A DNA stretch of 13,836 bases from contig BNVG01000048.1 of the NCBI GenBank assembly GCA_025997935.1, positions 1-13,836 of the forward strand, given 5' to 3'. Under the pieces are notes generated by a model, which searched no databases, was not told the origin of the DNA, and was given only the letters and a program-made list of their open reading frames with translations. The stretch comes from Synergistales bacterium (GTDB lineage: Bacteria; Synergistota; Synergistia; Synergistales; Aminobacteriaceae). The position numbers and the translations under genes are program-made. This document shows positions 2,834-13,836 of the stretch, in pieces (positions within the stretch are counted from its first letter, which is position 1; each line of letters opens with the position of its first letter).

Positions 2834-2950
2834 ATTTTATTTTGATTTTTTTATTTCAGTTTTCGCGAAATTTATTTTTATATCCTATTATTATAAGAAG
2901 TATAAAATTATTATAGCAACATAAACGATCAAACTTGAAATCATACAGCC

Positions 2951-2955
2951 GGGAG
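2951..2955 (+). promoter_or_regulatory. Shine-Dalgarno pointing to a TTG start of the MFS gene
   Basis: GGGAG at 2951-2955 lies 9 bases before a TTG at 2965. The ATG at 2956 abuts it with zero spacing, and an upstream in-frame TTG at 2935 has no SD at all. The spacing therefore favours the TTG at 2965. Confidence 0.6.
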
Positions 2956-2964
2956 ATGACCTAT

Positions 2965-4251
2965 TTGCAAAACCGAAATCAATTCGCTCTTTTTCGCACT
3001 AAGCGGTTTTTGCCGCTTTTCCTTACGCAGTTTCTTGGCGCGTTCAACGACAACTTTTTCAAAAGCGCTATGGTGATGCTCATAACCTACCGCATAGCCG
3101 ACAAGGCAGGGTATGACCCCCGCATTTTGGTCAACGTCGCGGGGGGCGTCTTTATCCTGCCGTTCTTTCTTTTTTCCGCGACGGCGGGACAATTGGCCGA
3201 CAAGTACGAGCGTTCCCGTCTCGTACAGTTCACAAAACTCGCGGAGATTGTCGTGATGGGCGCAGCCGCCGTTGGATTTTACATTGAGGACGTTCATCTG
3301 CTGATGGTCGTTTTGTTTTTGATGGGGGCGCAGTCCACTTTTTTCGGACCGCTGAAATACAGCATCCTGCCTCAGCATCTCGATGAGGATGAGCTTATAG
3401 CCGGAAACGGACTGATACAGATGGGGACTTTCTTATCCATACTTACGGGCACAATTTTCGGCGGGCTTTCTATTTTAAGCGACGGCGGAGTTCACTTAGT
3501 CAGTTTCTTGGTAGTAGGCATAGCAACGACGGGATGGTGGGCCAGCCGTCACATCCCCACAACAAACCCTGTAGCGCCGGGCCTGAAGCTCTCGGTCAAC
3601 TTTGTCAAAGATACGGTAAAAATAGTGGCCAAAGTCGTCCCCTATCGGGACATTTTTCTTTCTATCCTGGGCATATCCTGGTTCTGGTTTGTGGGCACGA
3701 CGTTTCTTTCGCAATTTCCGACCTACGCCAAGCTCGTAATAGGCGCGGACGAGCAAGTCGCGACGCTGTTTCTCGCCACCTTTTCGTTTGGCATCGGTCT
3801 CGGTTCTATGGCCTGTAACAGCGTCCTGAAAGGTAAGGTCTCTCTTGTTCATGTCCCCTGGACTGCTGTCGCCATTTCAGTCGCCTGTACCTGTCTCTTC
3901 CTCGTAAGCCAGCGTCCCCCTTTAGAAAGCAGCGTACCCGAGATGGGACTGCTCGCGTTTTTATCAAACGCTCAGAACCTGGCGATCCTTGCTTGTCTTT
4001 TCGCAATATCTTTTTCGGGAGGGCTTTATATCGTGCCGCTTTACGCGTTCATTCAAAACCGCGCCGACGAGGCTCACATGGCAGGCGTCATAGCCTGCGC
4101 CAACATCACGGACTCGCTCTTTATGGTTCTATCCGCCGTACTGACAAGCGTCTTGCTGATGACAGGGTTCTCTATTCCTCACATCTTCCTCGTCACGGCC
4201 ATCCTGACAGTCGTCGCGGCCGTCATTATAAGGAAGGCTGTCCGGGGGTGA
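2965..4251 (+). CDS. MFS transporter, LplT/Aas-like (lysophospholipid transporter group)
   Basis: Integral inner-membrane carrier of 428 residues from the TTG at 2965 (438 from the TTG at 2935, 431 from the ATG at 2956; the SD decides for 2965). Hydrophobic stretches run almost throughout and fit the usual 12 membrane helices. After a short N-terminus come QFLGAFNDNFFKSA (22-35), an MFS loop 2-3 motif GQLADKYERSR (75-85) and FFGPLKYSILPQHL, features I associate with LplT and with the transporter half of fused LplT-Aas proteins. E. coli LplT flips lysophosphatidylethanolamine inward for re-acylation by Aas. No acyltransferase or acyl-ACP synthetase is fused or adjacent here, though plsY is close. 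It appears monocistronic. The last 26 bases overlap the end of the opposing ankyrin gene. The MFS assignment is firm; the substrate is inferred. Confidence 0.85.
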   Translation: MQNRNQFALFRTKRFLPLFLTQFLGAFNDNFFKSAMVMLITYRIADKAGYDPRILVNVAGGVFILPFFLFSATAGQLADKYERSRLVQFTKLAEIVVMGAAAVGFYIEDVHLLMVVLFLMGAQSTFFGPLKYSILPQHLDEDELIAGNGLIQMGTFLSILTGTIFGGLSILSDGGVHLVSFLVVGIATTGWWASRHIPTTNPVAPGLKLSVNFVKDTVKIVAKVVPYRDIFLSILGISWFWFVGTTFLSQFPTYAKLVIGADEQVATLFLATFSFGIGLGSMACNSVLKGKVSLVHVPWTAVAISVACTCLFLVSQRPPLESSVPEMGLLAFLSNAQNLAILACLFAISFSGGLYIVPLYAFIQNRADEAHMAGVIACANITDSLFMVLSAVLTSVLLMTGFSIPHIFLVTAILTVVAAVIIRKAVRG

Positions 4252-5185
4252 GGGACTCATTGGCCGCTAACGCGTTAGATAACATGGATATTAGCACGTT
4301 TCGGTTTTTGCGTTGCGCTATGGCAAGGGCGGTCTCGCCTTCGCGGGAAAGAAGACTCGGGTCAGCCCCAAGCTCCAGAAGCATAGACACCATGTCCGGT
4401 CTACCTAAGGCCGCCGCCGCCATTAAGGGCGTATCGCCATATTTGTCGCGCCCGTTCACGTCAGCTCCGGCGTTTATGAGGTCGCGCGCTATGGCGACGT
4501 TGTTTCTGGAGATTGTATAGCTCAAAAGCGTACACCCGTTTTTGTCGAGTTTACTCAGGTTTTTCGCCTCTTTCAAAAACTCGCGCACCACATCGGGTCT
4601 GTTTTGCACTATGGCGTATGTCAGAGTGGAGTTGTCGGAGCGGAGGATAAGGCTTTCTTCGGCCAGTTGCGTAAAATGACGGATAACGTCAACTCTGTTT
4701 AGCGCTATGGCGGCTTTCATGGCGCTAATGCCTGCGTCGTCCGGCGCGTTTATGTCCGCGCCCTCCGACACGAGACGCAAGACATCGTCATCTCTACCCT
4801 TTCGGACGGCCTCTATAAGCTCGATATTCCGCATAGAGACCGGGCTTGGCGCCAAGTCGGGGTCAGGCACATGTACGGGACGCAGGAAAAATATCCCAAG
4901 ACTCGCGCCAAACGCCAAAAACAACGTCACGCCCGCTATGGCCAAAGCGGCTACGCGCTTTTTCGATGGTTTTTTGCCATCTTTTTTGTCATCCGATCGC
5001 CCTCCGCTTAGGGTGGCGATTTCCGGTTTTACGAACGCGGCGTCGGTGAGCTCAGCGCTCAGCGAATCCGCGCTTTCATCCGTAGCCGTGTCAGCATTCG
5101 CGGTGCTTTCTTCGGGCTTGCGTCTTTTGAAAATTCCGGCGAGCTTCGCGAAAAAACCGGTCAAGATTATCTTAAAGCTATTCAT
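4226..5185 (-). CDS. Membrane-anchored ankyrin-repeat protein
   Basis: 319 residues of unknown role. Residues 1-23 form a short amphipathic, basic-ended stretch (FKIILTGFFAKLAGIFKRRK). Residues 24-66 are acidic and low in complexity, then comes a lysine-rich patch (67-77) and one membrane helix (78-101, VAALAIAGVTLFLAFGASLG). From about 119 to 310 are roughly six ankyrin-type repeats, for example DKYGDTPLMAAAALGRPDMVSMLLELGADPS, given here as DKYGDTPLMAAA plus MVSMLLELGADP. The positive patch before the helix predicts N-terminus in, ankyrin domain outside the cytoplasm. Its SD GAGGAG overlaps the plsY stop codon (TGAGGAG), so the two genes are cotranscribed and probably coupled. The 3' end overlaps the opposing transporter gene by 26 bp. 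Ankyrin domains bind proteins; the partner cannot be read from sequence. Confidence 0.85.
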   Translation of the reverse strand: MNSFKIILTGFFAKLAGIFKRRKPEESTANADTATDESADSLSAELTDAAFVKPEIATLSGGRSDDKKDGKKPSKKRVAALAIAGVTLFLAFGASLGIFFLRPVHVPDPDLAPSPVSMRNIELIEAVRKGRDDDVLRLVSEGADINAPDDAGISAMKAAIALNRVDVIRHFTQLAEESLILRSDNSTLTYAIVQNRPDVVREFLKEAKNLSKLDKNGCTLLSYTISRNNVAIARDLINAGADVNGRDKYGDTPLMAAAALGRPDMVSMLLELGADPSLLSREGETALAIAQRKNRNVLISMLSNALAANESLTPGQPSL

Positions 5186-5197
5186 AATTCTAACTCC

Positions 5198-5806
5198 TCA
5201 AATCTTATTTTCTTTCCCGTGGGTCAGCCGCTCTATGTTGCTTTTGTGGCGGAATATGGCAAAAACAGCCAAAACAAAAGAAACAACAACGAAGGAGCAA
5301 GGCGCGTCCAGCATCTCGAAAAATATGGGTATGGACAACAACGAGAATATCGAGGCCAACGATACGTAGTGCGTAGAGGTCATGACCGCGTACCATATCG
5401 CGCCGCTCATCAGGGCCACAGCGAAAGATTCGTATGGCCACAGGAAAAACACCACGCCGTAGGTGGTGGCGACGCCTTTACCGCCCTTGAACTTCAGCCA
5501 TATCGGAAAGTTATGACCTAATACGGCAGCGAAGCCCGAGAGCGAAAGATGTACAGGAGCGACGCCGACGGAGGCCACGGTAAACAGGAGCGCCAACGCG
5601 CCCTTCAGCATGTCCACAGCCGTCACGAAGATGCCCCATTTGTTCCCCATGACGCGCCTGACGTTTGTCGCGCCCGTGCCGCCGGAGCCGACCGTACGAA
5701 TATCAACTCCTTTGAAAAGGCGTACCAACAAATATCCTGTCGGGAACGACCCAACGAAATAAGAAATTATCATCCACAGTATTGCGCTTCTAATCATGTG
5801 TCTCAT
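5198..5806 (-). CDS. plsY: Acyl-phosphate:glycerol-3-phosphate acyltransferase PlsY
   Basis: PlsY transfers an acyl group from acyl-phosphate (made by PlsX) to sn-glycerol 3-phosphate, giving lysophosphatidic acid, the first step of phospholipid synthesis. It is a polytopic inner-membrane enzyme; 202 residues is the normal size. All three conserved loops are visible: GSGGTGATNVRR (40-51), GHNFPIWLKFKGGKGVATT (97-115) and RHKSNIERLTHGKE (186-199). Loop 1 has GG where GSGN is usual; the catalytic-loop residues otherwise look intact. A perfect SD, AGGAGG, lies only 3 bases from the ATG at 5806 and 12 from a second ATG at 5797 (Met4), so either start is possible. The ankyrin gene follows directly. 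TATAAT words at 5890-5885 and 5870-5865 (minus strand) are candidate -10 boxes without a clear -35. Confidence 0.95.
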   Translation of the reverse strand: MRHMIRSAILWMIISYFVGSFPTGYLLVRLFKGVDIRTVGSGGTGATNVRRVMGNKWGIFVTAVDMLKGALALLFTVASVGVAPVHLSLSGFAAVLGHNFPIWLKFKGGKGVATTYGVVFFLWPYESFAVALMSGAIWYAVMTSTHYVSLASIFSLLSIPIFFEMLDAPCSFVVVSFVLAVFAIFRHKSNIERLTHGKENKI

Positions 5807-5949
5807 GCACCTCCTGTGTGTTTTTCCGTAAATTTATCAAATATCCAAAATCATTAACTGGTAGATTATAAGAGATACTGAGTTATTATAACAGAATAAT
5901 CAAAAAAGATTCTCTAACGCGCTTAATATTGAGAAAGGAGACAGTGAAG

Positions 5950-6246
5950 ATGAAAAAATTTGACGCTCATCGCGTGGCCAAAAACGATAACGTGGCGGTG
6001 GTTGTGCGGGATGTGAAGGCGGGGGAGGCGCTAACAATTCACAGCGACGGCGCTGAGCCGTTGTTTATTGTGTCCGCGTCCGATATTCCCGCGGGGCACA
6101 AGATAGCGTTGGCCGACGTTAAAAACGGCGGCGATATTTTGAAGTACGGCGAGATTATTGGCGCGGCGACGGCGGACATAGCTAAAGGAGAATATGTGCA
6201 TATTCATAATTTGGAAGGCAAAAGAGGCAGGGGGGACAGGGCGTGA
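5950..6246 (+). CDS. UxaA-family hydro-lyase, small (SAF-domain) subunit
   Basis: 98 residues, the typical size of the separate small subunit in the altronate dehydratase / galactarate dehydratase / sulfolactate sulfo-lyase family. Conserved features run in order: KNDNVAVVVRDVKAGE, ASDIPAGHKIALADV (the SAF-domain core), ILKYGEIIGAATADIAKGEYVH and a C-terminal HNLEGKRGRGD. In the family this domain works with the large subunit on sugar acids or sulfolactate; it is cytosolic. I chose the ATG at 5950, 9 bases after GGAG (5937-5940), over an in-frame TTG at 5929 that would contain that SD. The stop overlaps the large-subunit GTG by 4 bases. No regulator, transporter or sugar-acid gene is adjacent, so the substrate is unknown. 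Confidence 0.9.
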   Translation: MKKFDAHRVAKNDNVAVVVRDVKAGEALTIHSDGAEPLFIVSASDIPAGHKIALADVKNGGDILKYGEIIGAATADIAKGEYVHIHNLEGKRGRGDRA

Positions 6247-7415
6247 ATAATACATTTATGGGATATGTCAGGCCAGACGGAAGTGTCGGGGTCAGGAATC
6301 ACTTGCTGGTTTTGCCATCTGTGGTCTGCGCGACCGACACGGCTTCCCGTATAGCTTTTCAACTGAACGGCGCGGTGAGCGTCACGCACCAGCACGGCTG
6401 CGCGCAGCTTCCGGCTGACTCCGCCCAGACGGCGCGTACGCTCGCCGGCTTCGGCGCAAACCCGAACGTCGCGGCATGTATCGTGGTTGGCCTCGGCTGC
6501 GAAACGATAAGCGCGCGCGACTTAGTTTCCGACATCGAGAGACTCGCGCCTGGCAAGCCCGTCATATCTTTGGTCATTCAGGACGAGGGCGGTACGCTTA
6601 ACACGATAAACAAGGGCGTCAAAATCGGGCGCGAAATGCTCTCCGCCATATCGGGAATAACGCGTGAGGAGCAGCCCGTTTCAAAACTGACCTTGGGGCT
6701 CGAGTGCGGCGGGTCGGACGCCTGGTCGGGCTTGTCGGCAAACCCCGTAGCGGGCAGCGCGTCGGACAGGCTTATAGCGGCGGGCGGAGCGTCTATTTTG
6801 TCGGAGACGCAGGAGATTATAGGCGCTGAGCATATTCTGGCGAAACGCGCCATCAATAAAGACATAGCGGAACGCCTTGTGGCTATCGTGCGCAGGGCGG
6901 AGGAGGGCGCGCTTTCGGGAGGCGTAGATATAAGGCTCGCCAACCCTACGCCGGGCAACAGACAGGGCGGCCTTTCCACACTCGAGGAAAAATCCCTCGG
7001 ATGTATCAGCAAGGCGGGCCTTGTCGCGCCGATTTTAGAGGTCTTGGACTTCGCGGAACGCCCGACGCAACGCGGCCTTGTGGTCATGGATACGCCGGGG
7101 CACGACATCGAGTCCATAACAGGTATGGTCGCGGGCGGCGCTCAGGTTATCTTTTTCACCACGGGACGCGGCACATGCACGGGCTGTCCCATAGCTCCCG
7201 TTATAAAGATATGCTCGAACACGGAGAGGTTCGAGCATATGCGCGACAATATGGATGTCGACGCCGGAGCGGTCATAACCGGCGATAAAACAATATCCGA
7301 CATAGGCGAAGAGCTTTTCGAGGAGATGAAGCGCGTGGCAAGCGGCAAATCGACCAAGAGCGAGGATCTTGGCTATGGCAGCTTCGCGATAAACCGCATA
7401 GGGCCGACGCAGTAG
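6243..7415 (+). CDS. UxaA-family hydro-lyase, large catalytic subunit
   Basis: 390 residues from a GTG at 6243 that overlaps the small-subunit stop (GTGA) and follows a G-rich SD at about 6230-6235. An ATG at 6258 is an alternative. Family hallmarks appear in order: GYVRPDGSVGVRN (7-19), Cys29, HQHGCAQLPADS (49-60), VVGLGCET (81-88), GLECGGSDAWSGLSANP (152-168), GAEHILAKRA, NPTPGN, LSTLEEKSLGC, MDTPGHDIES and GRGTCTGCP (308-316). Several cysteines (29, 53, 86, 155, 312, 315) are candidates for the metal or iron-sulfur site. Relatives dehydrate D-altronate or galactarate, or split sulfolactate (SuyB). The sequence alone does not tell which, and no pathway neighbours help. A 12-bp perfect inverted repeat begins at its stop codon. 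Confidence 0.92.
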   Translation: MNNTFMGYVRPDGSVGVRNHLLVLPSVVCATDTASRIAFQLNGAVSVTHQHGCAQLPADSAQTARTLAGFGANPNVAACIVVGLGCETISARDLVSDIERLAPGKPVISLVIQDEGGTLNTINKGVKIGREMLSAISGITREEQPVSKLTLGLECGGSDAWSGLSANPVAGSASDRLIAAGGASILSETQEIIGAEHILAKRAINKDIAERLVAIVRRAEEGALSGGVDIRLANPTPGNRQGGLSTLEEKSLGCISKAGLVAPILEVLDFAERPTQRGLVVMDTPGHDIESITGMVAGGAQVIFFTTGRGTCTGCPIAPVIKICSNTERFEHMRDNMDVDAGAVITGDKTISDIGEELFEEMKRVASGKSTKSEDLGYGSFAINRIGPTQ

Positions 7416-9587: not shown

Positions 9588-9613
9588 AAGGGCACGGCGC
9601 GCGCCGTGCCCTT
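9588..9613 (+). terminator. GC-rich palindrome after groEL, likely intrinsic terminator
   Basis: A perfect 26-bp palindrome with half-site AAGGGCACGGCGC, 33 bases after the groEL stop. Folded, it gives an 11-bp stem with a GCGC loop, very stable. The following T run is short (CTTTAG), so it may act as a terminator of modest efficiency or as an mRNA-stabilising end. Confidence 0.65.
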
Positions 9614-9624: not shown

Positions 9625-9664
9625 CAAAATCGTATGTCGTTGTTCCGCGCGGGGGGTGGCCTTA

Positions 9665-10315
9665 ATGAAAACAAACGTCAGCGTGGCGGGAGTCCTCAAG
9701 CAGGGAGCCCCGGATGATTTTGTCTATATAGATGAATATATTGAGGATTGTGTTATTGACGTGAAATACTGGGGGACCGATAATTTTGTCGGTCGCCCGA
9801 TTGACGGCTACGACCGCCCTCTTGTTATGCTTGGTAAAAAGGCCGCCGAGGCTTGCGTTCAGGCGGCTGGTATTCTGCGCAGAAGGGGGCTTCTCATGAA
9901 AATATTCGACGGATACCGCCCGCAGTGCGCCGTCGACGACATAGTTCAATGGCTCTCAGATGAATGGGACATTCGCCGCAAGCCGATTCATTACCCCAAC
10001 GTAGACAAAAAAGATTTTCTGCGATTGGGGTATATCATGCCAAAATCCGTACACTCGCGCGGAAACGCCGTAGACCTCACCCTCGTTGACGAAAAAACCA
10101 AACACGAGCTTGATATGGGAACCATATTTGACTTCATGGACCCGCGTTCTTATATAACGACGAGAGCCATTACGCCCGCTCAAAAGCAAAACCGCGAGTG
10201 TCTGAGGAACGCCATGTGCGCTTCGGGATTCGCCGAATATCTCAGTGAGTGGTGGCATTATTCGCTCGTGCGAGAGCCTCACCCCGATTCATATTTTAAC
10301 TTTCCCGTTCGTTGA
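9665..10315 (+). CDS. D-alanyl-D-alanine dipeptidase, VanX/DdpX family (peptidase M15D)
   Basis: 216 residues. VanX-type enzymes are zinc dipeptidases that hydrolyse free D-Ala-D-Ala, in van clusters to remove the normal precursor and in E. coli DdpX for nutrition. The zinc and catalytic signature is complete: SVHSRGNAVD gives Ser128, His130 and Asp137, and SEWWHYSL gives the base Glu195 and ligand His198. FDGYRP (81-86) carries the conserved arginine, and DMGTIFDF (150-157) is the family's post-ligand loop. No signal peptide, so cytoplasmic like VanX. I chose the ATG at 9665, 5 bases after a GGGGGGTGG SD, over the GTG at 9656 lying inside it. First of four same-strand genes; the hydrolase starts 16 bases after its stop. 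It sits with Ddl, whose product it should destroy. Confidence 0.92.
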   Translation: MKTNVSVAGVLKQGAPDDFVYIDEYIEDCVIDVKYWGTDNFVGRPIDGYDRPLVMLGKKAAEACVQAAGILRRRGLLMKIFDGYRPQCAVDDIVQWLSDEWDIRRKPIHYPNVDKKDFLRLGYIMPKSVHSRGNAVDLTLVDEKTKHELDMGTIFDFMDPRSYITTRAITPAQKQNRECLRNAMCASGFAEYLSEWWHYSLVREPHPDSYFNFPVR

Positions 10316-10331
10316 CCGGAGGAAACACATA

Positions 10332-11147
10332 ATGAATATAGACAATATAAATATAAAAATAAACGGAATTAACATAAACTACTGCGACGCCCGCGAAACC
10401 GGAGCGCGCAACGGTCTGGCCGTAGTTTTTTTGCACGGTTGGGGCGTGGATTTTTCTTATTTTTTGCCGGTTATGGAGCGACTTAAAGAATCGATGCGCG
10501 TATGCGCCCTTGATTTACCGGGCTTTGGGGGCAGTGACGAACCGCCCGTCGCTTGGGGCGTCGATGACTACGCCGATTTCGTGCGCGCTTTTTTGACTGA
10601 CATAGGCGCTATGCGCGCGGTTTTGATAGGGCACTCCTTCGGCGGGCGCATAGCGATAAAACTGACCGCCCGCCGCGAGGCCGACAGGGCCGGGCTTGAA
10701 ATACCCAGGATAATTCTGATTGACAGCGCCGGCATTCGCCCCAAAAAAACGCTTACGCGCAAAATTAAAAATATTTTCTATAAAATCGTCAGGCGAATCT
10801 TATCAATAGATATCATCCAAAAAAAATACCCTGACATTATTGAGAGATGGCGCGTAAAAAACGGTTCCGCCGATTATCGGAACGCGAGTCCTCGTATGCG
10901 CGAATCTCTTGTAAAGGTCGTGTCCGAGGACTTGACTCCCTGCCTGCCTCTTGTGTCCTGCCCGGCCCTTTTGGTGTGGGGGGAAAACGACAAGGCGACG
11001 CCTCTACGCGACGCGCGCGTTATGGAAAGTCTTATCCCGGACGCCGGGCTTGTCGTCTTACGCGGGGCGGGGCATTATTCATTTATCGAGCAAAGCGGGA
11101 TTTTCAACCGCGTACTGGATTCTTTTTTGAATATCGAGAGGTCGTGA
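10332..11147 (+). CDS. Alpha/beta-fold hydrolase of unknown substrate
   Basis: 271 residues from an ATG at 10332, 9 bases after GGAGG (10318-10322). The classical fold landmarks are visible: oxyanion HGWG (35-38), DLPGFGGSD (61-69), nucleophile elbow GHSFGG with Ser102, acid Asp220 in WGENDKATPL (216-225), and His248 in GAGHYSF. A basic cap region lies between about 136 and 190 (KKTLTRKIKNIFYKIVRR). There is no signal peptide. It could be an esterase, lipase or amidase; the family is too broad to say. It lies 16 bases after the dipeptidase and 7 bases before the MurF-like gene, so it is probably part of the same envelope-related operon, but whether it acts on peptidoglycan precursors, lipids or antibiotics cannot be read here. 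Confidence 0.85.
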   Translation: MNIDNINIKINGININYCDARETGARNGLAVVFLHGWGVDFSYFLPVMERLKESMRVCALDLPGFGGSDEPPVAWGVDDYADFVRAFLTDIGAMRAVLIGHSFGGRIAIKLTARREADRAGLEIPRIILIDSAGIRPKKTLTRKIKNIFYKIVRRILSIDIIQKKYPDIIERWRVKNGSADYRNASPRMRESLVKVVSEDLTPCLPLVSCPALLVWGENDKATPLRDARVMESLIPDAGLVVLRGAGHYSFIEQSGIFNRVLDSFLNIERS

Positions 11148-11154
11148 TTCGGTT

Positions 11155-12639
11155 ATGACGCTCGCGACGTTTTTGATTATCGTATTCCTTTTGTGCCACG
11201 CGGCCATATCGCTACGCAATTATCATATTTTCCAGCTCAATTCTTATAAACCTGACGTCCAGTTCTCATGGCTTTTGCGTAGCCCCGCAAGCGCTTGGTC
11301 GGTCTATCCGCGCAAGGCGAAGAAGCCTATGGTATGTACGCCCCGTATGTTGCGTATGTTCGCAACTCACCTTGTCGTCCTGCTCGCTGTAATGACTATC
11401 GCTTTTTATTTTAACGCCCCCTGCCGGGTCATTTTCGCCGCCGCGCTGGCGCTCTCGGCTCCTCTTTTCCCGCACTTGACAAGGCTCCTGAACGCTCCAA
11501 TTGAACGCGCCATAAACCGATGGTATATCGAGGACGCCAAGAGGATACTGAATAGCAACTCACGCCTCCGCGTCATAGGCGTCACGGGAAGCTACGGCAA
11601 AACGAGCGTCAAGAACTTTCTGCAAAGGATACTCGCTTCAAAGTTCAATTGCTTGATGACGCCCGAAAGCTACAACACTACGCTCGGCGTCGTGAGGACG
11701 ATACGCTCGTCTCTGAGAAGCGCGCACGATATTTTTATATGTGAGATGGGGGCGAGAAATCAGGGCGACATCAAAGAGATATGCGATATTGTAAACCCTG
11801 GCCTCGGCGTTATTACATCCATAGGAGAGCAGCATTTGGAGTCTTTTAAGTCCCTCTCCAATATCGTAAAGACGAAGTTCGAGCTGGCCGACGCGCTGCC
11901 CCGCGACGGAGTTCTTTTTTTGAACGCCGACAACGAATCTATACAAGAACGCCTCGGCGATAGTTCTTGCCGTCTTCCACAGACAATTGTAAAGTGGTCG
12001 ATGTCGGAAGGGCGCGCAAACGGAGACGAAAGTATATACAGAGCTTTTGACTTGTCCGTATCGGTGAAGGGCTCCGCCTTTAAGGTGAGTTTCCCCGACG
12101 GAGAAGAACGGGTTTTCGAGACGCCGCTGATAGGCGTTCCAAACGTCATGAATATCTTGGCCGCCATAACCGTAGCGGACAGTTTGGGCGTAGAGCGCAC
12201 GGATATAGCGCTTGGCGTATCGAGGCTCGAACCTGTCCCGCACAGGCTTCAGCTACTCCGCAACTCTTCGCTCCCCATAATCGACGACGCCTATAACTCG
12301 AACCCAAACGGCGCGGCGGCGGCCCTGTCCGCGCTTGCCATGTTCGACGGGTATTTCAAGATTTTAGTGACGCCCGGCATGGTGGAGTTGGGAGAGAAAC
12401 AGGACGAGCTGAACGGGCGTTTCGGCGCAGCGGCGGCTGAGGTCTGCGACTTTGTTATTCTTATGGGAGAACGCCAGACTAAAGGCATTTTGGCCGGTTT
12501 GCGCGGCGCGGGGTATGAGGCGAGAAAAATATTTGTGACGGAGAGCTTGTCTTCGGCTTTTGAAAAGATAAATTCAATAGACGCGGGGGCGCGGCCAAAA
12601 ATAGTTTTGCTTGAGAACGATTTGCCGGACAATTATTAA
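11155..12639 (+). CDS. MurF-like Mur ligase with N-terminal membrane domain
   Basis: 494 residues. Mur ligases use ATP to join amino acids or peptides to UDP-MurNAc; MurF adds D-Ala-D-Ala. The central and C-terminal domains are clear: P-loop GVTGSYGKTS (142-151, Lys149), TPESYNTTLGVVRTI (169-183), EMGARNQGDI (197-206), LNADN (256-260), GVPNVMNILAA (327-337), HRLQ (363-366), the MurF-type DDAYNSNPNGA (377-387), TPGMVELGEKQ and a C-terminal ENDLPDNY. The N-terminal ~138 residues are unusual: hydrophobic segments at about 2-20, 70-87 and 89-106 stand where canonical MurF has its UDP-MurNAc-tripeptide-binding domain, and the P-loop lies some 35 residues later than usual. The ATG at 11155 follows the hydrolase stop by 7 bases, with a GAGAGG SD inside the hydrolase end. 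Likely anchored at the inner face of the membrane; substrate unproven. Confidence 0.85.
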   Translation: MTLATFLIIVFLLCHAAISLRNYHIFQLNSYKPDVQFSWLLRSPASAWSVYPRKAKKPMVCTPRMLRMFATHLVVLLAVMTIAFYFNAPCRVIFAAALALSAPLFPHLTRLLNAPIERAINRWYIEDAKRILNSNSRLRVIGVTGSYGKTSVKNFLQRILASKFNCLMTPESYNTTLGVVRTIRSSLRSAHDIFICEMGARNQGDIKEICDIVNPGLGVITSIGEQHLESFKSLSNIVKTKFELADALPRDGVLFLNADNESIQERLGDSSCRLPQTIVKWSMSEGRANGDESIYRAFDLSVSVKGSAFKVSFPDGEERVFETPLIGVPNVMNILAAITVADSLGVERTDIALGVSRLEPVPHRLQLLRNSSLPIIDDAYNSNPNGAAAALSALAMFDGYFKILVTPGMVELGEKQDELNGRFGAAAAEVCDFVILMGERQTKGILAGLRGAGYEARKIFVTESLSSAFEKINSIDAGARPKIVLLENDLPDNY

Positions 12640-12656
12640 ATATTAAATTATTAAAT
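12634..12656. repeat. Short TATTAAA direct repeats between the MurF-like gene and ddl
   Basis: TATTAAA occurs at 12634, 12641 and 12649; the first copy contains the TAA stop of the MurF-like gene. They form a 23-base AT-rich spacer before the ddl SD (GGGGTGA). Probably only an AT-rich, unstructured ribosome loading zone. Confidence 0.5.
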
Positions 12657-12668
12657 GGGGTGATCCGC

Positions 12669-13836
12669 ATGACAATCAGTGTAGGTGTGTTTTTTGGCGG
12701 AGGGAGCGTAGAGCACGAGGTCTCCGTAATATCCGCGCTTCAGGCGCTCCATAATTTCGACAGGACAAAATACGACGCCTTCCCGGTCTATATATCCAAA
12801 GACTGGAGGATGTACGTGGGCGACTCGCTTTCTGAAATAAGGGAATACCGCGACATACCGTCTCTTCTAAAGAAAAGCGTCAGGGTGACGGCCGTCAGGG
12901 AAAACGGCCGGGTTTTGTTTACGCGGTATCCCGTGAAAAAATTCGGCTCAAGCGTAGTTCGTTCGATTGACGTGGCGTTCCCCGTCGGACATGGAACCAG
13001 CATGGAGGACGGGGTGTTGCAGGGGTACCTGAGGAGTCTGTACCTCCCGTTTGCGGGGTGCGATGTAACGGCTTCGGCGGTCGGGATGGACAAATACATA
13101 ACGAAGGTTTTGCTCCGCGACGCCGGGCTTCCCGTCTTAGATTGCCACAAAATAACCGCCCGCGCTTTCTTCAAGGATAAAGCTCAAGCCATAAAGGATA
13201 TTTCGCTCGCGCTGAAATTTCCCGTCGTCGTCAAGCCCGTCAACCTCGGCTCGAGCGTCGGCATATCGGCGGCGAATAACGAATCAGAGCTCAAAGACGG
13301 GTTGGAAGGGGTTTTTTATTATACGAACACGGCGCTCGTCGAGCCTGCCGTTCAAAACCTCAGAGAGATAAACTGCGCCGCGCTCGGCGACTCGGAATCC
13401 GTCATGGCCTCCGAGTGCGAGGAACCCATATTGAGCCACGCCGTTTTAGGCTACGACGACAAATACTCGGGCGGTTCCAAGGACGAAGGTTCCAAGGGTA
13501 TGGCGGGCGCCAAAAGAAAGCTGCCGGCGGATATAACCCAGGCGCAACGGGACGCAATCCGCGACCTCGCCGTGAGGGCCTTTCAGGCTTTGGGGTGCTG
13601 CGGCGCGGCGCGGGTGGATTTTCTGATGGACGGCTTGACCGGCGATATTTTTATCAACGAGCTAAACACGATTCCGGGGTCTCTTTCGTTTTATCTGTGG
13701 GAGGCCGTCGGGATACAGTATAAAGAGCTTCTCGACATGATGATCGAAATAGCCTTGAAGCGTGAGCGCGACGAGGCCGGTGTGACGCATTCTTTTGACA
13801 CAAATCTTCTGTCGGACTTCAGCGGCGGGGTTAAGG
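12669..13836 (+). CDS. ddl: D-alanine--D-alanine ligase (C-terminus beyond window)
   Basis: Ddl joins two D-alanines with ATP to supply MurF. 389 residues are visible and the frame is still open at the right edge, longer than the 306-370 usual for Ddl. Start is an ATG at 12669 after a GGGGTGA SD. The ATP-grasp plan is complete: FFGGGSVEHEVSVISAL (8-24), HGTSMEDGVLQGYL (108-121), GMDKYITK, PVVVKPVNLGSSVGIS, the omega loop GYDDKYSGG with Tyr266, GAARVDF, and the Mg-binding NELNTIPGS (330-338, Glu331 and Asn333). A tyrosine in the omega loop is what D-Ala-D-Ala ligases have, and argues against D-lactate specificity. That loop carries a Gly/Ser/Lys-rich extension (267-284). Last visible gene of the D-Ala cluster, 29 bases after the MurF-like gene. 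Confidence 0.95.
   Translation, partial: MTISVGVFFGGGSVEHEVSVISALQALHNFDRTKYDAFPVYISKDWRMYVGDSLSEIREYRDIPSLLKKSVRVTAVRENGRVLFTRYPVKKFGSSVVRSIDVAFPVGHGTSMEDGVLQGYLRSLYLPFAGCDVTASAVGMDKYITKVLLRDAGLPVLDCHKITARAFFKDKAQAIKDISLALKFPVVVKPVNLGSSVGISAANNESELKDGLEGVFYYTNTALVEPAVQNLREINCAALGDSESVMASECEEPILSHAVLGYDDKYSGGSKDEGSKGMAGAKRKLPADITQAQRDAIRDLAVRAFQALGCCGAARVDFLMDGLTGDIFINELNTIPGSLSFYLWEAVGIQYKELLDMMIEIALKRERDEAGVTHSFDTNLLSDFSGGVK

Follow-up and report, generated by a model that had tools for sequence, protein, structure and literature searches.

A relocated ligase module with a membrane-type MurF and an alpha/beta hydrolase partner as a probable replacement for MurF and Ddl

The DNA analysed here (the window) is one whole contig of 13,836 bases (G000:C48) from a Synergistales bacterium whose genome assembly amounts to 2.25 Mb in 333 contigs and is 70.5% complete. 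Its forward strand closes with four genes encoding a VanX-type dipeptidase, an alpha/beta hydrolase (ABH), a MurF-like ligase and a D-Ala-D-Ala ligase (Ddl). MurF is an essential drug-target enzyme regarded as a soluble, three-domain protein that acts on a precursor linked to uridine diphosphate (UDP); the protein encoded here is a membrane-type variant (MurF-TM) with membrane helices in place of the UDP-binding domain. Gene content and domain structure indicate that the run is probably a relocated, horizontally spread peptidoglycan module that has replaced MurF and Ddl and joins D-Ala-D-Ala at the membrane face, a confidence that attaches to the replacement module and not to a lipid-linked step. 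The preliminary description of this DNA, which saw a van-like module making and breaking D-Ala-D-Ala, overlooked both the membrane nature of MurF with its lost UDP-binding domain and the fact that the hydrolase is its most constant partner.

MurF-TM (positions 11155..12639, + strand) is a Mur ligase of 494 residues with matches to Mur_ligase_M (128.4 bits) and Mur_ligase_C (45.3 bits), while no Mur N-terminal domain was listed for it in the family profile scan. In NCBIfam its top five models are all MurF or MurF fusions (221.3 to 108 bits), ahead of pMurC (71.6) and MurE (71.3), and the match to TIGR01143 runs from position 68 to 367 of the 418-position profile. The central ATPase and C-terminal domains (11581..12636, +) retain the MurF-type motifs, including the P-loop TGSYGKTS, K241 and DDAYNSNP; the structure-match list was filled by ligase domains, and the best matches by both sequence and fold were MurF. 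Where the UDP-binding domain would lie, residues 1-134 (11155..11556, +) form a largely hydrophobic membrane domain with helices at 3-28, 63-83, 88-100 and 102-133. Between two and five strongly hydrophobic segments were detected within the first 150 residues of 46/47 relatives (L039 alone fell under the threshold) versus 0/16 canonical MurFs. Two motifs accompany these helices: HIFQLNSYK (residues 24-32; 11224..11250, +) follows the first and is present as a pattern in 40/48 sequences, some of the misses perhaps reflecting start-site choice, and KKPMVCTPR (consensus KKPLVYTxR; residues 56-64; 11320..11346, +) precedes the next and is present in 45/48. T62, R64 and R67 are invariant in 84 sequences, and the family shares the C-terminus LLENDLPDNY. 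The closest named relatives of the window ligase come from Synergistales bacteria (L037, 75%; L038, 73%). Nearly all candidates scored (7,970/8,000) reached E <= 1e-20; the best 120 were listed, the membrane domain was checked in part of these, and source names among the matches listed are MurF, UDP-N-acetylmuramyl peptide synthase and Mur ligase. No description of a membrane-type MurF was recognised in the literature searched, which comprised titles and abstract openings, most subscription papers lying outside its coverage.

The distribution of the two MurF types was compared across 59 Synergistaceae genomes (murF model, E <= 1e-30) and 63 genomes (E <= 1e-45) from the Clostridia family of G079, the genome of locus L059, titled Oscillospiraceae. 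With type read from the start position of the profile match wherever the sequence was not fetched, 13 Synergistaceae genomes carry the membrane type (start 58-75), 42 have a match from position 1 or 2 (one of them a fragment), 1 (G005) is unclear and 3 have none; genomes with both kinds number 0/59. The G079 family divides into 25 membrane-type, 34 canonical and 4 without a match, again with 0 carrying both; G137 has two murF matches, neither membrane-type by range, and partial matches underlie the calls for G110, G114 and G140 (canonical) and for G146 and G148 (membrane type). No canonical MurF was found in the window's own genome, where the two weaker murF-model matches are MurD and MurC, nor in the 13 membrane-type Synergistaceae, so that MurF-TM is not a paralogue accompanying a canonical enzyme, as the MurF paralogues of glycopeptide producers named in the preliminary description might suggest. 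Among the 35 Clostridia-type genomes of named loci the membrane type was present in 35/35, and weaker full-length murF matches elsewhere (up to 144 bits) proved to be MurE in all seven fetched. At the chosen cut-offs G006, G019, G041, G133, G135, G142 and G144 gave no MurF match, reflecting either incompleteness or a further variant, and the only murF-model match in the single-contig genome G005 covers positions 131-416 (137 bits).

The dcw cluster agrees with this distribution. In membrane-type Synergistaceae murE runs straight into mraY with no murF between them (6/6: G029, G018, G016, G001, G010, G035), and murF is likewise absent from 5/5 membrane-type Bacillota pieces that hold murE and mraY, two more pieces holding murE only; it is thus missing from 11/11 membrane-type clusters with both flanking genes in reach. 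These counts leave out the window's genome, in which mraY lies at a contig end, together with L037 and L038. In the canonical controls murF adjoins mraY in 5/5 (L105, L166, L169, L177, L178). At the level of gene content, MurF-TM and canonical MurF are mutually exclusive and murF has gone from the dcw cluster. Both types occur within one genus: G027 has a dcw murF and a short Ddl and no ABH, and G035 and G016 have the module. Contamination as the source of this exception was unsupported, since six G027 dcw proteins are closest to those of G035 (73-81%; MurE tied with G016) and the dcw contig is therefore not foreign. G027, set against G016 and G035, offers a natural contrast of the two systems in near-isogenic backgrounds.

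The partner of MurF-TM, ABH (10332..11147, +; Abhydrolase_1, 88.7 bits), is an alpha/beta hydrolase by fold and by a Ser-Asp-His triad (S102, D220 and H248, assigned by position) that is invariant in 43 sequences. Its AlphaFold2 (AF2) model has a predicted local distance difference test score (pLDDT) of 94.8, and a fold search returned esterases, lactonases, C-C hydrolases and a membrane phospholipase A (6i8w), matches too general to fix a substrate; no NCBIfam cut-off was reached among the 25 of 30 models listed. ABH was found in 47/50 MurF loci and directly upstream of MurF in 46/50. In L064 a broken MurF frame piece separates the two genes, and L054 and L074 start inside MurF, so that the upstream position is not covered. 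Across genomes, relatives of ABH (E <= 1e-20) are present in 13/13 membrane-type Synergistaceae versus 1/46 others, the exception being a G037 protein of 34% identity (E 2e-21). In the G079 family ABH (E <= 1e-15) accompanies 24/25 membrane-type genomes, missing only from G146, whose MurF sits at a contig edge, versus 0/38 others. Fisher tests of ABH against MurF type gave 3.5e-12 (Synergistaceae) and 1.6e-16 (G079 family), uncorrected for kinship. Judged by these co-occurrences, MurF-TM has a constant partner in ABH, and a pairing so near to absolute would place an unassigned hydrolase in cell-wall synthesis.

Ddl (12660..13835, +) has a GTG start, with an ATG at 12669, and is cut off by the end of the contig, lacking only a few residues. 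It matches Dala_Dala_lig_N (85.7 bits) and Dala_Dala_lig_C (159 bits) and passes the cut-off of the DdlA-like subfamily NF002528 (293.2 versus 262). By the numbering of E. coli DdlB, it keeps E15, S150, E187 and Y216, residues characteristic of D-Ala-D-Ala ligases, and lacks VanA H244; among the 25 NCBIfam models listed, those for D-Ala-D-lactate (D-Lac) and D-Ala-D-serine (D-Ser) ligases scored 135-202 bits against cut-offs of 495-775. On sequence criteria D-Ala-D-Ala is the likely product. The loop on the acceptor side, from DdlB 282 onward, is shorter by four residues, and the omega loop is extended by a Gly/Lys/Ser-rich stretch (13467..13517, +) that ends in the family motif KGMxxxxRxxPA. 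In the Ddls of L042-L067 this loop bears a low-complexity Gly/Lys/Ala/Ser-rich extension of very variable length, several also having a Gly-Lys-rich tail at the end. No second full Ddl was found in the window's genome, the other PF07478 match scoring 23.1 bits within a 1318-residue frame (24.1 bits with its neighbours, just above the cut-off). Window-type Ddl is present in 12/13 membrane-type Synergistaceae including the window's own, the other 11 being 57-62% identical, and was not found in G035. Of the 46 genomes without membrane-type MurF, 37 gave only Ddl matches of 25-35% and nine gave none at 1e-10, so that Ddl type follows MurF type.

Downstream of groES-groEL and a GC-rich hairpin, open reading frames and family profiles place the four genes on the + strand in the order VanX-type gene, ABH, MurF-like gene and Ddl. 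The intergenic gaps within the run are 16, 7 and 20 bases, the last being 29 with the ATG start of Ddl. The preliminary description was borne out on the single tight same-strand run and, by the PF01427, Abhydrolase_1, Mur_ligase_M/_C and Dala_Dala_lig profiles, on the gene identities; it was also right, in our judgement, to see a possible link between Ddl, MurF and a D,D-dipeptidase. Conservation of the order in relatives, on which its module depended, was found for ABH, MurF and Ddl and not for VanX. As the ABH-MurF-Ddl order is kept across other genera and phyla, chance is excluded for those three; no further neighbour besides them and VanX recurred in more than 4/50 loci. The four proteins had no PADLOC match at E <= 0.001, and a defence system was set aside.

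The VanX-type D,D-dipeptidase gene (9665..10315, +) has an ATG start, a GTG at 9656 being possible, and its product scores 139.6 bits against PF01427 (cut-off 27) and 207.9 bits against the VanX equivalog NF033115 in NCBIfam, under the cut-off of 320. Nearly its whole length aligns with VanX 1r44 (E 1.4e-47), with HSRGxAxDLT, EWWHY and DGYRP kept, as are HxxxxxxD, E and H, which we take to be the metal-binding and catalytic residues; a hydrophobic N-terminal segment is absent. VanX adjoins the module in the window, L037, L038 and G010, and two looser cases occur in Clostridia, divergent upstream in L046 (36% identity) and after Ddl in L061 (29% identity). PF01427 was detected in 42/59 Synergistaceae genomes, 5/13 with the membrane MurF and 37/46 without it. 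VanX is a local addition outside the conserved core, and the make-and-break reading of the preliminary description was borne out only in part. Sharing the run in a small clade and in G010, it would be an ordinary cytosolic D,D-dipeptidase limiting or recycling the D-Ala-D-Ala pool, and expressing it together with Ddl would not have to be futile, provided that it targets excess or imported dipeptide.

The van-like comparison can be followed further as a scheme of antibiotic evasion, in which the ligase makes D-Ala-D-X, MurF-TM prefers that product and VanX destroys D-Ala-D-Ala. The position of VanX beside Ddl's module in the window clade and G010 (loosely in L046 and L061) and the shortened acceptor-side and remodelled omega loops of Ddl fit such a scheme, and a published account places MurF-like genes next to vanHAX in Actinobacteria (PMC8698665). 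However, Ddl keeps DdlB-type residues without VanA H244, the D-Lac and D-Ser models stay far under their cut-offs, and VanX is absent beside most module loci and commoner in genomes without the module. As the preliminary description had noted, none of the frames in the window was recognised as VanH, VanR or VanS, a negative that holds for this contig, no search for vanH having been made in the remainder of the incomplete genome. On the residues of Ddl and the distribution of VanX, a van cluster was rejected as the main reading, and we regard antibiotic evasion as improbable. Other observations weigh against the replacement module itself. MurF-TM stays under the NCBIfam murF cut-off (221.3 versus 288.6 bits), most genomes compared are incomplete assemblies, and part of the type assignment depends on profile start positions. 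In L075 (G009), unlike the other loci, no ABH is recognisable in the 350 bases that precede MurF; its ABH lies at the end of another contig, through an assembly break or a real rearrangement. Window-type Ddl is next to MurF on the same contig in 5/12 Synergistaceae and on another contig in 7/12, and the constant core is therefore ABH-MurF only. Three related Oscillospiraceae of the 35 named-locus genomes (L052, L053 and L055, being G072, G073 and G075) carry both MurF types, so that in them MurF-TM can serve a different role. These three genomes favour a tailoring ligase that puts the dipeptide on some other membrane-bound acceptor, canonical murF having been lost to assembly gaps elsewhere. 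Yet canonical murF is found in 0/13 and 0/25 membrane-type genomes of the two families and is absent from dcw clusters even where murE and mraY are in reach, and we consider tailoring very unlikely.

In the replacement module as we envisage it, Ddl would make D-Ala-D-Ala, and MurF-TM, driven by ATP and working together with the serine hydrolase ABH, would join it to the N-acetylmuramic acid (MurNAc)-tripeptide at the inner face of the cytoplasmic membrane, the module standing in for dcw murF and, in Synergistaceae, for the short DdlB-type ligase. The gene order, the domain swap and the co-occurrence with ABH can be read directly from the genomes compared; that MurF-TM adds D-Ala-D-Ala to the muramoyl tripeptide we infer because its catalytic residues are kept and an essential step would otherwise be missing. 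That MurF-TM has lost the UDP-binding domain and gained a conserved membrane domain points to binding of the acceptor through some group other than UDP, and the membrane domain may place MurF-TM where the acceptor is or becomes lipid-linked, by analogy with MurT on lipid II. A lipid-linked tripeptide (lipid I or II) and UDP-MurNAc-tripeptide docked in a new way are about equally likely acceptors, each a little short of an even chance. Somewhat more tentatively, D-Ala-D-Ala may be joined at the lipid stage, MraY moving the tripeptide precursor and MurF-TM with the hydrolase completing the pentapeptide on lipid I/II. MraY would then have to accept a tripeptide precursor, which tells against this order, as does the comparison of 13 membrane-type with 30 canonical MraY sequences (one further canonical sequence was not recovered), where no residue was shared by the membrane-type sequences of the two phyla and missing from the canonical ones. 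Column 268 (G021) does split the types within each phylum (L in 8/8 versus mostly I/M; A in 5/5 versus G in 10/10), a pattern that relatedness could explain. The lack of a shared type-specific change in MraY and the fully kept catalytic domains would suit the usual MurF reaction on UDP-MurNAc-tripeptide, with the membrane domain merely tying the enzyme to the MraY/MurG machinery and ABH as an operon bystander. Against such an anchor stand the loss of the UDP-binding domain, motifs on the presumed cytosolic side that exceed what anchoring needs, and a co-occurrence with ABH in two phyla almost without exception; it remains a serious contender, if one we would not back at even odds. For ABH within the replacement module, the most likely role would be to act as an esterase at the membrane that edits or clears away, for example, wrongly made esters such as D-Ala-D-lactate, a speculative assignment in which we place little confidence.

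The history of the module was approached with a tree of 65 proteins that was built by a quick, short search and had canonical MurFs as its root. Synergistota, Spirochaetota and one Deltaproteobacterium fall into a single clade (Shimodaira-Hasegawa-like approximate likelihood ratio test, SH-aLRT, 99) nested among Bacillota sequences, suggesting that the gene was transferred from Bacillota; long branches occur at several points in Bacillota and one row is titled Bacteroidales. A protein of the termite symbiont Treponema primitia is among the MurF-TM matches listed. On a GroEL tree of 50 genomes, covering 12/13 membrane-type genomes (G009 had no GroEL match), the MurF-type label needs three changes, consistent with repeated swaps or with one gain and later losses. 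L068, on a contig titled Bacteroidales, carries ABH-MurF-Ddl, by transfer or misbinning.

Taken together, a second MurF form without the UDP-binding domain is widespread and appears to have taken the place of the standard gene in several phyla, and a late cell-wall step may therefore run differently in some gut-type bacteria of these phyla. The textbook steps and MurF inhibitors directed at the UDP site may consequently not apply to many gut-type bacteria. If D-Ala-D-Ala did prove to be joined at the lipid stage, the last cytoplasmic peptidoglycan steps would be reordered in Synergistota, many Clostridia, Treponema and other bacteria. Which comes first, the lipid step or the joining of D-Ala-D-Ala, can now be put to a direct test.

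Elsewhere in the window, a GC-rich inverted repeat with a T-containing stretch after it (9589..9610, +) in the gap between groEL and the cassette is, as read from the sequence, a likely groEL terminator. The site scan placed a terminator-like site at 9596-9610, weak evidence alone because 13 such sites were found versus 6.0 expected in the scanned region. A member of the galactarate dehydratase family (5929-7415) is divided between two frames, a small N-terminal one and a large one, that overlap by 4 bases. On the minus strand, 4226-5185 encodes an ankyrin-repeat protein that has a hydrophobic stretch at about residues 76-106; its gene is convergent with that of a major facilitator superfamily (MFS) transporter (2935-4251) related to LplT and acyltransferase-linked transporters, and adjoins plsY (5198-5806).

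Compared with known systems, MurF-TM shares with MurF (T. maritima 3zl8, E. coli 1gg4) the central ATPase and C-terminal domains, the P-loop, the lysine and DDxYNxNP; it differs in having membrane helices for the UDP-binding domain, in lying outside dcw, in its pairing with ABH and in the C-terminus LLENDLPDNY. The window Ddl resembles the DdlA-like ligases of NF002528 in its score above cut-off and its kept catalytic residues, and departs from Enterobacter DdlA and E. coli DdlB in the Gly/Lys-rich omega-loop extension and the acceptor loop shorter by four residues. Like VanX/vanHAX clusters, the run combines a VanX-type dipeptidase with a Ddl-family ligase; unlike vanHAX, it has no D-Lac ligase residues and its VanX is not conserved with the module. 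MurT/GatD is reported to act on lipid II (PMC6085368). The MurT chain, like MurF-TM, starts at the central Mur domain and has a partner gene product; in contrast to MurT, MurF-TM scores 28.1 bits against the NCBIfam MurT model (cut-off 800), carries a MurF-type dipeptide-site motif and is partnered by an alpha/beta hydrolase, whereas the partner of MurT is the glutaminase GatD.

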